Position numbers and translations under genes: made by a program. From the NCBI RefSeq assembly GCF_001422885.1, contig NZ_LMMZ01000034.1:189055-253054 (forward strand): DNA of 64,000 bases, read 5' to 3'. The stretch is from Methylobacterium sp. Leaf104. Its GTDB lineage: Bacteria > Pseudomonadota > Alphaproteobacteria > Rhizobiales > Beijerinckiaceae. The notes below the pieces were generated by a model. That model made no database searches and was not told the DNA's origin. It worked only from the letters and a program-made list of their open reading frames with translations. Below, piece by piece: positions 16,309 through 30,384 of the stretch (its first letter is position 1; every line of letters starts with the position of its first letter).

Positions 16309-16408
16309 TTCGGCCATGCGGTCGCGAGGGCGTCTCGGCCATGCAGCCGCGAGGGCGTCTCGGCCATGCGGCCGCGAGGGCGTCTCGGCCATGCGGCCGC
16401 GAGGGCGG
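16309..16408. repeat. Four tandem copies of a 25-nt palindrome-containing repeat
   Basis: Units at 16309-16333, 16334-16358, 16359-16383 and 16384-16408 share the sequence CTCGGCCATGCGGCCGCGAG plus GGCGT, with one to three differences in the outer copies. Each unit holds the inverted repeat CGGCC-ATGC-GGCCG, so every copy can form a small hairpin. The array fills the space between the microprotein stop and the convergent stop of the next gene. There are no spacers, so this is not CRISPR. REP-like or terminator-like roles are possible. Confidence 0.9.
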
Positions 16409-27515: not shown

Positions 27516-27634
27516 CCCCGGCTCAATCGTTCAGCGACGGGTTCAACCTTTGCCGTGGCCTTGGCGTGGGCACGGGCGCTATGGCCCCGCCACCGGGCGG
27601 CACCGCCCCGTCCGGGTCGAGACCGGACGTCGTG

Positions 27635-28522
27635 ATGGACCGCACTCAGAAAGCCGCCCTCCTGAGCGCCGGCCTCGGCACCCTGGTGATGGGGCTCAAG
27701 TTCGCCGCCTACTGGGTCACCGGCAGCCTCGCGCTGTACTCCGACGCCCTGGAGAGCATCATCAACGTGGTGGCGGCGGTGTTCGCCCTCGTCGCCCTGC
27801 GGGTCGCCGCCCGCCCGGCCGATGCCGACCACCCCTACGGTCACCACAAGGCCGAGTACTTCTCCGCCGTGATCGAGGGCGCGCTCATCATCGTGGCGGC
27901 GATCCTGATCCTGCGCGAATCCTTCCACGGCCTCCTCGATCCCAGGGCCCTCGACGCGCCCGTGACCGGCCTCCTCGTCAACCTCGTGGCCACGGCGGTC
28001 AACGGCGCCTGGGCCGTAATCCTGCTGCGCCGGGGCCGGGCCTGGCGCTCCCCCGCCCTGGTGGCCGATGCGCGCCACGTGATGGCCGATGTCGTCACCT
28101 CCGGCGGCGTCCTCGTCGGCGTCGCCCTGGTGGCGGTCACCGGCTACGCGATCCTCGATCCGCTCATCGCCGGGCTGGTCGCCCTCAACATCCTGTGGTC
28201 CGGCTGGGGCATGGTCCGCGATTCGGTGAGCGGCCTGATGGACAAGGCGGCGCCGAGCGAGATGGTGGCGCAGATCCGCGACCTCATCTCGACCCACAGC
28301 ACCGGCGCCCTGGAGGCCCACGACGTCCGCACCCGCCATGCGGGGCAGGCCACCTTCATCGATTTCCACCTCGTGGTGCCGGGCACGATGACGGTGCAGG
28401 ATTCGCACGCGATCTGCGATCGGCTCGAACAGGCGATCGAAACCGCGATCGAAGGTTCGGTGGTGGTCATCCATGTCGAGCCGGGCGAGCATGCCAAGGG
28501 TCGGGGCGTCCCGGTGATCTAG
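27635..28522 (+). CDS. Cation diffusion facilitator family metal exporter
   Basis: A 295-residue inner-membrane exporter with six helices and a C-terminal cytoplasmic metal-sensing domain, exporting Zn, Fe or similar ions in exchange for protons. The transport site is formed by TM2 (SDALES, aligned with DxxxD of YiiP, the second Asp being Glu) and TM5 (HVMAD, the HxxxD pair). The linker HPYGHHKAEYFSAV is the standard CDF motif. The C-terminal domain has HDVRTRHAG, DFHLVVPG and VVIHVEP. The start is uncertain: ATG 27635 fits the family N-terminus; ATG 27581 and GTG 27566 are upstream in frame. Substrate not determined. Confidence 0.92.
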   Translation: MDRTQKAALLSAGLGTLVMGLKFAAYWVTGSLALYSDALESIINVVAAVFALVALRVAARPADADHPYGHHKAEYFSAVIEGALIIVAAILILRESFHGLLDPRALDAPVTGLLVNLVATAVNGAWAVILLRRGRAWRSPALVADARHVMADVVTSGGVLVGVALVAVTGYAILDPLIAGLVALNILWSGWGMVRDSVSGLMDKAAPSEMVAQIRDLISTHSTGALEAHDVRTRHAGQATFIDFHLVVPGTMTVQDSHAICDRLEQAIETAIEGSVVVIHVEPGEHAKGRGVPVI

Positions 28523-28623: not shown

Positions 28624-28638
28624 TAGACGACCGGTCTA
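28624..28638. promoter_or_regulatory. TetR-type operator, copy 1
   Basis: TAGACGACCGGTCTA: TAGAC and GTCTA are inverted half-sites separated by 5 bases. It lies 20 bases before the ATG of the TetR-family gene, where a repressor would block its own promoter. The 14-base string AGACGACCGGTCTA is repeated exactly at 29309-29322. NemR-like TetR repressors use TAGAC/GTCTA operators of this kind. Confidence 0.75.
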
Positions 28639-28658
28639 ATGTGAGCTAGATCAGCGTC

Positions 28659-29261
28659 ATGGCACAGGCGAGCGGCAACATCGATGTCCGGCAGGGCATC
28701 CTCGATACGGCCCACCGCATCGTGGGTGCGAAGGGGTTTTCGGGCGTCGGTCTCAACGAGATCCTGGCCGCCGCACGGGTCCCGAAGGGGTCGTTCTACC
28801 ACTATTTCGGCTCCAAGGAGGCCTTCGGCGAAGCGTTGCTGGCGGATTACTTCGCGGATTATCTCGCCGATATCGACGCCACCCTGGCGGAGCCAGGCCT
28901 CAGCCATGCCGAGCGCCTGATGACCTACTGGCGCAAGTGGCAGGCGACCCAGGGCAGTATCGATCATCAGCGCAAGTGCCTGGCCGTGAAGCTGGCCGCC
29001 GAGGTCTCGGACCTGTCCGAGCCGATGCGCCTGGCCCTCAAGGCCGGGACGGCGGGAATTCTCGAGCGGGTGACCCGAGCCATTGAGGCTGGGGTGGCGG
29101 ACGGGTCTCTGCGGGTCGAGGGCCGCGCCCGGGACGTCGCCGAGACGCTCTATCACCTCTGGCTCGGCGCGAGCCTCATGGCGAAGATCGAGCGCTCCGA
29201 CGCGCCGTTCGAGGCCGCGTTGGCCACGACCCGGCGGATCCTCGATCCGCATCCGGCCTGA
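28659..29261 (+). CDS. TetR-family transcriptional regulator (NemR-like)
   Basis: A 200-residue repressor with an N-terminal helix-turn-helix (residues 12-56: ILDTAHRIVGAKGFSGVGLN, EILAAARVPKGSFYHYFGSK) and a helical ligand domain typical of the NemR/AcrR group (YWRKWQATQG, CLAVKLAAEVSDLSEPMR, YHLWLGASLMAKI). The single Cys in HQRKCLAVK is at the region where NemR carries its redox-sensing Cys, but exact equivalence is not proven. It is flanked by two identical operators, one before itself and one before the next transcription unit, which encodes a DJ-1/PfpI protein. It probably represses both until reactive electrophiles modify it. Confidence 0.9.
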   Translation: MAQASGNIDVRQGILDTAHRIVGAKGFSGVGLNEILAAARVPKGSFYHYFGSKEAFGEALLADYFADYLADIDATLAEPGLSHAERLMTYWRKWQATQGSIDHQRKCLAVKLAAEVSDLSEPMRLALKAGTAGILERVTRAIEAGVADGSLRVEGRARDVAETLYHLWLGASLMAKIERSDAPFEAALATTRRILDPHPA

Positions 29262-29308
29262 TCGCTTGGGCCGGGACGTATACGGGGATTTCGGCCCGCC
29301 GGCTTCTA

Positions 29309-29322
29309 AGACGACCGGTCTA
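29309..29322. promoter_or_regulatory. TetR-type operator, copy 2
   Basis: AGACGACCGGTCTA, identical over 14 bases to the operator before the TetR gene. It lies about 30 bases before the ATG of the small secreted protein at 29351 and so probably controls that gene and the PfpI gene behind it. Confidence 0.75.
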
Positions 29323-29350
29323 CTCAATTGCTACCAATCAAGAGAATCTA

Positions 29351-29599
29351 ATGCGTATCCAACCCACCCACGCCGTCGCGCCCTACCTTCTGCTCGCCGA
29401 ACTCGGAGCCGCCCTGTTCGGGGGGGCTGCCGCCTCGGCCGAGGAGCGCATCACCCTGGAGGTGATCGGCGCCGTCCGCATGGCCGGGCCGGACACGAGC
29501 CGCCGGTCCGCCGCCTCGTCGCAGCGATCCGAAGCCCGGCCGATGCGCGAGACGATCGCGGAGCGCACCGATGCCCCCGTGTGGTCCGTCCGGCACTGA
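29351..29599 (+). CDS. Small probably secreted protein under the TetR operator
   Basis: An 82-residue protein with a signal-peptide-like start (VAPYLLLAELGAALFGGAAASA) and a polar, Arg/Ser-rich remainder (MAGPDTSRRSAASSQRSEAR) without Cys or a known motif. AAGAGAA precedes the ATG. It is the first gene after operator copy 2 and lies 100 bases before the PfpI gene, so it is probably the leader of that transcript. Composition is ordinary enough to be real, but coding is less certain than for its neighbours. Confidence 0.45.
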   Translation: MRIQPTHAVAPYLLLAELGAALFGGAAASAEERITLEVIGAVRMAGPDTSRRSAASSQRSEARPMRETIAERTDAPVWSVRH

Positions 29600-29700
29600 C
29601 GCGCGGACGAACCGACACGCGACCGATCGGGCAGGTCCTGCGGCCGCCGATCGACACGACCCTTCACGACACCCGAACGTTTCACGGACGGAGAAGACTC

Positions 29701-30384
29701 ATGAAGATCCTGATGGTCCTGACCTCGCACGACACCCTCGGAGACACCGGCCGGAAGACCGGTTTCTGGCTCGAGGAACTCGCCGCGCCCTATTACGTGT
29801 TCAAGGATGCGGGCGCCGAACTCGTGCTGGCCTCGCCCAAGGGCGGCCGGCCGCCCCTCGACCCCAAGAGCAATGAACCCGGCTTCCAGACGGACCTGAC
29901 CCGCCGCTTCGAGGCCGACGGCCAAGCCAACGCCGTCCTGTCGGACACGGTCCGGCTCGATGGCGTGACCCATGATGGCTTCGATGCCGTGTTCTATCCC
30001 GGCGGCCATGGTCCGCTCTGGGACTTGGCCGAGGATCCGACCTCGGTGCGGCTGATCGAGAGCACGCTCCAGGCCGGCAAGCCCGTGACCCTCGTCTGCC
30101 ACGCCCCCGGCGTGCTGCGCCACGCGAAGACGCCCGACGGCGCGCCGCTCGTCGCGGGCAAGGCCGTCACCGGCTTCACCAACACCGAGGAAGAGGCGGT
30201 CGGCCTGACCGCGGTCGTTCCCTTCCTGGTCGAGGACGAGCTCAAGCGGAACGGCGGCACCTTCTCCAAGGCGGGCGACTGGGCGCCGTACGTGGTCGCG
30301 GACGGCCTGCTGATCACCGGGCAGAATCCGGCGTCCTCCGGCCCTGCGGCCGAGCGCCTGCTCGCGATGCTCGTCAGCGCCTGA
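29701..30384 (+). CDS. DJ-1/PfpI (Hsp31-type) class I glutamine amidotransferase-like protein
   Basis: A 227-residue cytoplasmic protein of the HchA/Hsp31 branch. The nucleophilic Cys is in VCHAPGVL at the elbow; the acidic partner lies in TGRKTGFWLEE, where Glu is typical; FYPGGHGPLWDL and TGFTNTEEEAVGL are family signatures. Members detoxify methylglyoxal and glyoxal without glutathione (glyoxalase III) or act as chaperones or deglycases. Placement behind a NemR-like operator supports an electrophile-detoxification role. A good purine-rich site (GGAGAAGA) precedes the ATG. Confidence 0.92.
   Translation: MKILMVLTSHDTLGDTGRKTGFWLEELAAPYYVFKDAGAELVLASPKGGRPPLDPKSNEPGFQTDLTRRFEADGQANAVLSDTVRLDGVTHDGFDAVFYPGGHGPLWDLAEDPTSVRLIESTLQAGKPVTLVCHAPGVLRHAKTPDGAPLVAGKAVTGFTNTEEEAVGLTAVVPFLVEDELKRNGGTFSKAGDWAPYVVADGLLITGQNPASSGPAAERLLAMLVSA

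Follow-up and report, generated by a model that had tools for sequence, protein, structure and literature searches.

A compact regulon predicted in Methylobacterium: a CurR/NemR-type TetR repressor, two operators and a DJ-1/PfpI unit with a small protein

The locus and its operator pair

The locus lies in a 64-kb stretch of Methylobacterium DNA (the window) and carries, on one strand, the genes for a TetR-family repressor, a small protein and a DJ-1/PfpI protein, with one operator before the first gene and another before the second (Table 1). The sequence AGACGACCGGTCTA was present in two exact copies in the window, at 28625-28638(+) and 29309-29322(+), and the whole genome (4,968,001 bases) contained exactly these two. 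The first-pass annotation had placed this 14-base sequence twice, once in front of the TetR gene and once in front of the gene pair for the small protein and DJ-1, and had proposed a genome search for further copies; the count stands in the window and in the 4.97-Mb genome, where the search returned the two exact sites and no third. Exact fits to AGACGAYYRGTCT were likewise confined, genome-wide, to these two sites. Seventeen one-mismatch sites exist in the genome.

Table 1. Features of the TetR/DJ-1 locus and its surroundings, in window coordinates
Feature	Position	Strand	Remarks
Tandem repeat	16310-16407		25-bp unit TCGGCCATGCGGCCGCGAGGGCGTC, 3.9 copies, 95% matches
Cation diffusion facilitator	27566-28522	+	directly upstream of the TetR gene, same strand; outside operator control; close to the MntE model (431 bits; cut-off 500)
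Operator 1, TAGACGACCGGTCTA	28624-28638		exact site; 20 bp before the TetR ATG
TetR-family repressor, CurR/NemR group, 200 aa	28659-29261	+	Pfam TetR_N and TetR_C_13
Operator 2, AAGACGACCGGTCTA	29308-29322		28 bp before the small-protein ATG
Small protein, 82 aa	29351-29599	+	signal-peptide-like start ending AxA; ERITLExIGAVRM; Arg-rich tail
DJ-1/PfpI protein, Hsp31 (YDR533c) type, 227 aa	29701-30384	+	Pfam PF01965, 3e-12

AGACGACCGGTCTA forms the core of an imperfect palindrome, TAGAC-N5-GTCTA. Both outer bases are present in site 1, site 2 begins with A, and operator 2 is an exact 14-bp copy of operator 1 counted from the second base of the latter. Across the window, no match to AGACGACCGGTCTA with one or two mismatches was found; three matches with three mismatches were present, the chance expectation for up to three mismatches being 4.96. 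Repetition within the window was considered as stand-alone evidence and rejected, as 28 different 13-mers of this geometry (4-bp arms that pair perfectly around a spacer of 5 bp) repeat there, that of AGACGACCGGTCTA included; it is conservation in relatives that places the pair beyond chance. No sigma-70-type promoter-like site was found between 28500 and 30500.

The three proteins

The best NCBIfam model for the regulator was that of CurR (NF058643), with 250 bits against a curated cut-off of 300. Since the score falls below this cut-off, which none of the 398 sampled phylum genomes reached, the protein is called CurR-type here and not CurR itself. The closest solved structures were 3rd3 and 4l62 (E about 1e-62), listed in the structure table only as transcriptional regulators and presumably PA2196, followed by NemR (4yze, E=1e-40), and the regulator was 41% identical to Escherichia coli NemR. 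A TetR_N domain, a related C-terminal domain, these nearest named relatives and a TAGAC(N5-6)GTCTA operator upstream of the gene together identify a TetR protein of the CurR/NemR type, in agreement with the earlier description of it as NemR-like. The TAGAC/GTCTA operators then attributed to such regulators were confirmed as to their arms and could be sharpened to a 15-mer common to CurR-type regulators of other genera.

The only cysteine of the regulator, Cys107, aligned with NemR Cys106, and Lys176 with NemR Lys175; counterparts of NemR Cys21 and Cys116 were absent. Cys107 was present in 30/30 genus loci and in 43/43 further sequences (10 from the genus, 33 from outside), and Lys176 in 30/30 and 42/43, respectively. 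In 29 of the 30 genus regulators the Cys107 equivalent was the sole cysteine. CurR itself, according to the title of its study, reportedly senses hypochlorite and N-ethylmaleimide. For NemR, a review ties the sensing of bleach to the Cys106-Lys175 pair and that of electrophiles to Cys21/Cys116 (PMC7464077), and two other papers likewise give Cys21/Cys116 the electrophile or glyoxal role (PMC5297802, PMC12735817). Because the electrophile cysteines of NemR are missing and only the bleach-linked Cys106 equivalent is kept, the specific methylglyoxal or quinone response that the first-pass annotation had predicted is not favoured, and hypochlorite or N-ethylmaleimide-like compounds would be the preferred inducers. 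Note, however, that membership of the family does not reveal the inducer, since the related AltR did not respond to N-ethylmaleimide or diamide and the window regulator has one cysteine where NemR has six.

The solved relatives of the DJ-1 protein included 1u9c, 4p5p, YDR533c/Hsp31 and the glutathione-independent glyoxalase III 4lru (2e-26), which accords with the Hsp31-type partner proposed earlier. In printed alignments Glu26, Cys133 and His134 occupied the active-site positions, with roles that we in part presume, and on these grounds the protein belongs, by sequence, to the Hsp31/glyoxalase III type. A DJ-1 gene was found within the flank examined in 29/30 genus loci, the remaining one (L032) having an amidase-like frame, identified by eye, instead. 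Values of dN/dS for DJ-1 were 0.07-0.27 in eight closely related pairs. Elsewhere in the window genome, the only other match of the same type was a distant one (31%, E 6e-6). As a side observation, an amidase replaces or comes after DJ-1 downstream of the operator in L032, L091 and L121 (Pfam was run on L121 only).

The small protein was present in 27/30 genus loci, being absent from L018, L022 and L030. It is a real coding gene under weaker constraint than DJ-1: dN/dS was 0.16-0.70, and thus below 1 in 9/9 closely related pairs. Alignment of 12 sequences from the unit showed a hydrophobic N terminus ending in AxA and then ERITLExIGAVRM; three aligned paralogues had LETIGAVRM in common with them, and the core residues were invariant across the 12 unit and three paralogue sequences. 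The earlier claim of a small secreted protein under the second site is borne out as to the site and the signal-peptide-like start, which was read by eye; export itself is a prediction from that start. In 26 sequences the mature part contained 12-20% arginine and 0-2% lysine, uncorrected for genome composition. No Pfam or NCBIfam family was matched at 1e-3, and for the window protein no Pfam family at E 10. The AlphaFold model, with a mean pLDDT of 54, showed no confident fold, and in Methylobacterium sp. NMS14P the protein is annotated 'hypothetical protein'. Four variants of the small protein gave no Pfam match at E 10 to the DUF1471 family, to which we take RclB to belong, in searches where HMMER filters drop most weak matches. 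The leader that separates site 2 from the start codon of the small protein was 67-72 nt long in L024-L038 except L030, and mostly about 30 nt in the clade of the window. These longer leaders have GC-rich arms that fold into hairpins varying by species; a conserved leader hairpin was considered in one clade and rejected, RNAalifold giving only 2 pairs at -0.29 kcal/mol.

Distribution of operators, partners and small protein

A close TetR orthologue, defined by a best match below 1e-60, was found in 39/99 sampled genus genomes, and the loci of 30 of the 39 were read. Operators and regulator were coupled. Site 1 was the identical 15-mer in 30/30 of these loci, and site 2 had exact arms in 29/30, with one arm mismatch in L022. 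Of the 39 genomes with a close orthologue, 38 contained AGACGACYRGTCTA, 31 of them in exactly two copies; among the 60 genomes without one, it was present in 5 (G041, G053, G096, G055 and G047). In three of these five (G041, G053 and G096; loci L073, L081 and L074), two AGACGACYRGTCTA sites 34 bp apart lay between another TetR gene and, divergent from it, a putative transporter gene, which we take to be of the EamA/DMT type. This second TetR type had a Pfam TetR_C_13 domain in L074 and was 31% identical to the window regulator in L081; cross-talk or a common operator code is possible. Since another TetR adjoins the same sites in three genomes without the orthologue, the site alone does not name its regulator. 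In G055 (L052) the operator, an interrupted small-protein gene and DJ-1 were kept and no TetR gene stood beside them, and in G047 the AGACGACYRGTCTA copy lay inside a gene, presumably one for plasmid replication.

The sole orthologue-bearing genome without AGACGACYRGTCTA (G067) had a 60%-identical TetR adjoining an old yellow enzyme and an OsmC protein. Besides the triad, G021 (L080) carried another CurR-type TetR gene with two operators of its own; the genes after it encode an iron-containing alcohol dehydrogenase and a CurA-like reductase. Both the small protein and DJ-1 were missing from G039, where an amidase lay downstream of the second site. In G042 (L079) the operator preceded a shortened remnant TetR that reads through into a DJ-1 tail, and in G043 (L087) a partial small-protein gene stood before DJ-1, together with a shortened amidase and no TetR; L052, L087 and L079 are decaying versions of the unit. 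Two extra exact operator copies, G038:C30:327477 (L077) and G085:C224:201132 (L078), had no partner among the reference proteins.

Outside the genus, 33 related loci were read; an order sample supplied 6 of them and a phylum sample the other 27. In the former, 9/297 genomes matched, three of them from the genus; in the latter, a search with the CurR model matched 45/398 genomes at 51 places, of which 30, mostly the best-scoring, were read, three of these being from the genus. A site with exact arms was found 28-105 bp upstream of the regulator gene in 28/33 outside loci, and in 26 of these it was TAGACGACYRGTCTA, the other two (L139 and L167) having exact arms and a differing core. Such an upstream site was missing from five loci: in L149 all sites lay further downstream, in front of an old yellow enzyme, in L150 and L151 there was one mismatch, and in L153 and L158 there was no site. 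Anywhere in the locus, AGACGAYYRGTCT was found in 30/33, the exceptions being L150, L153 and L158.

The examined flanks of the 33 outside loci contained a CurA-type reductase in 13, DJ-1 in 10, an old yellow enzyme in 4, an iron alcohol dehydrogenase in 3 and another zinc dehydrogenase in 3; some loci had more than one type and five had none of those listed. The arrangement was also seen on plasmids, as TetR, iron alcohol dehydrogenase, NADP oxidoreductase and DJ-1 with two sites in Azospirillum thermophilum, as TetR and DJ-1 with two sites in Rahnella sikkimica, and as TetR, NADP oxidoreductase and DJ-1 with no exact-arm site in Citrobacter freundii. Because operator and DJ-1 recur beside related regulators of other genera, TetR, operator and DJ-1 together form a widespread module, and the window regulator is, by these sequence comparisons, a CurR/NemR-type repressor with the usual operator and a common target rather than a new system. 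At a threshold of E 1e-6, which is strict for a query of this length, the small protein gave no match in the 33 outside loci.

Within the genus, 39 regulator rows were compared, comprising the 30 loci and nine more, of which one was a second copy (G021) and another was truncated at the end of a contig; G067 was excluded. The small protein was present in 29 rows and DJ-1 in 34. On the regulator tree, in which 10/40 inner branches were well supported, the small-protein label changed six times, at least three of these changes being forced by well-supported branches. This patchiness would fit one gain and several losses.

A search for the small protein itself matched 42/99 genus genomes at E 0.01 or better. 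In L062, L065, L066 and L086 a paralogue precedes a short-chain dehydrogenase gene and a small gene, and diverges from a DJ-1/AraC regulator; the neighbours were identified by Pfam in L066 and by sequence match or eye in the other three, and the small gene, which has no Pfam match, we take to encode a tautomerase. In L088 a weaker paralogue (E 2.5e-4) had an old yellow enzyme on one side and a DsbA-like gene on the other. All five paralogous loci read thus adjoin redox or carbonyl enzymes. Among 397 order genomes, a non-exhaustive search whose first look scored up to 14 candidates per genome gave five matches outside the genus, of 18-20 bits and within long frames, which were taken as chance. 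A scan of an 84,980-species collection for LExIGAVRM found 29 Methylobacterium/Methylorubrum loci and one in Methylocella tundrae (L130); as it used this single peptide, more divergent relatives would be missed. The Methylocella locus, the only named one outside Methylobacterium/Methylorubrum, lies near aldolase-like and cytochrome-c-like genes (by eye) and in no detoxification operon. Within the reach of these searches the small protein seems to be an addition by Methylobacterium and relatives.

A predicted thiol-switch regulon

We consider it highly probable that the locus is a compact CurR/NemR-type regulon governed by a thiol switch, in which one repressor works through two operators on a small-protein/DJ-1 unit. 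The kinship of the regulator with CurR and NemR, the conservation of the sites together with it, the exact-arm sites before most related regulators of other genera, with DJ-1 or CurA often nearby, and the retention of Cys107 and Lys176 argue for such a regulon; the CurR score under the cut-off, the lack of a promoter-like site, the patchiness of the small protein, the loss of DJ-1 in one genus locus, the other TetR at the same sites, the uncertain inducer, and the five outside loci and the Citrobacter plasmid without the exact-arm site weaken the case. A TetR dimer would bind each operator and repress both its own gene and the small-protein/DJ-1 unit, whose two genes would be co-transcribed. 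Cys107, probably together with Lys176 as in the Cys106-Lys175 proposal for NemR, would react with hypochlorite or another thiol-reactive compound and the repressor would be released, giving more repressor, a cytosolic DJ-1 enzyme of predicted glyoxalase/deglycase type and a small, probably exported protein.

Three known repressor systems resemble this arrangement. CurR-curA (PA2196-PA2197) of Pseudomonas aeruginosa has a repressor of the same TetR group coupled to a carbonyl/electrophile enzyme; the likeness was drawn from the protein model and the solved structures, and the target there is curA where the window has DJ-1 and the small protein. NemR-nemA-gloA of E. coli has in common with the window a related repressor with the Cys106/Lys175 pair, TAGAC/GTCTA arms and detoxification targets. 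Upstream of E. coli nemR lies the 16-mer TAGACCGACTGGTCTA, one base longer than the window 15-mer, which we take for the NemR operator. In E. coli, however, nemR, nemA and gloA stand in one row with an old yellow enzyme and glyoxalase I as the enzymes, whereas the window has DJ-1. AltR, from the Pantoea alt thiosulfinate-tolerance cluster, is also a NemR-related TetR protein with operator copies before several units; the available text of its study describes self-repression, one essential conserved cysteine and a response to thiosulfinates, with an operator, CAATCTAC-N6-GTAGATTG, and targets that differ from those in the window (PMC13178969).

The same regulon could instead answer to a dicarbonyl or aldehyde (methylglyoxal, glyoxal, formaldehyde) or to a quinone, a signal that would match a DJ-1 glyoxalase; we hold this to be possible, if doubtful. 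It would suit an Hsp31-type DJ-1 related to a glyoxalase III, and three papers report that glyoxal causes strong induction of PA4336, a DJ-1 gene of P. aeruginosa (PMC12274486), that manuka honey induces two genes with DJ-1/PfpI homology (PMC7329319) and that glyoxals and quinones are among the signals to which NemR responds (PMC5297802). That NemR response, however, was assigned to the two cysteines that the single-cysteine regulator lacks. It is quite improbable that the signal is a small organic molecule bound in the pocket of the TetR protein, with no thiol switch and a cysteine of structural role. Many TetR proteins work through a ligand in the pocket, and the model for AcuR, the regulator of acrylate use, also matched the window regulator (114 bits, below its cut-off of 247), but Cys107 was kept in 73/73 aligned sequences. 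The characterised relatives NemR and AltR also rely on cysteines (PMC7464077, PMC13178969).

Alternatively, the small protein might be a passenger between operator and DJ-1 with no part in the response. Its patchy occurrence on the regulator tree, the loci in which DJ-1 stands alone downstream of the site, its weaker constraint and its lack of a confident fold would all agree with this; the dN/dS values below 1, the invariant core and the redox or carbonyl enzymes beside all five paralogues read speak against it, and we think such a passenger rather unlikely. We would guess, by analogy, that the small protein assists in the same stress response from the envelope side. The E. coli RclR-rclABC system provides the analogy, although RclR is an activator of the AraC family, unlike the window repressor, and no Pfam match ties the small protein to RclB. 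The available text on that system places an uncharacterised periplasmic protein alongside a reductase among stress genes (PMC7464077).

Extending the thiol-switch reading, the small protein might belong to a lineage-specific family of exported, Lys-poor and Arg-rich peptides, marked by ERITLExIGAVRM or a close variant, that serves as the envelope arm of several carbonyl/thiol-stress operons, each under its own control (CurR-type regulator with DJ-1; DJ-1/AraC with short-chain dehydrogenase; old yellow enzyme with DsbA-like protein). This proposal is speculative and on balance unlikely; were it true, the arginines of these peptides could, for example, be sacrificed to dicarbonyls or chlorine, or the peptides could act together with a periplasmic enzyme.

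Operator and DJ-1 target are ordinary and only the small protein, which the first-pass annotation had put forward as a new member of such a regulon, is new. A literature search, run without the protein sequence and with most subscription journals outside its reach, found no paper on the locus or the small protein. The locus would be a clean, minimal thiol-switch regulon, with one regulator, one cysteine and two operators that are the only exact sites in the genome. Its genus is methylotrophic and has to deal with formaldehyde. As the 15-bp operator is exact in 26/33 outside loci of CurR-type regulators, regulons of this type can be predicted from sequence, and the small protein, which recurs next to enzymes of carbonyl and thiol-redox chemistry, is the component that merits experiment.
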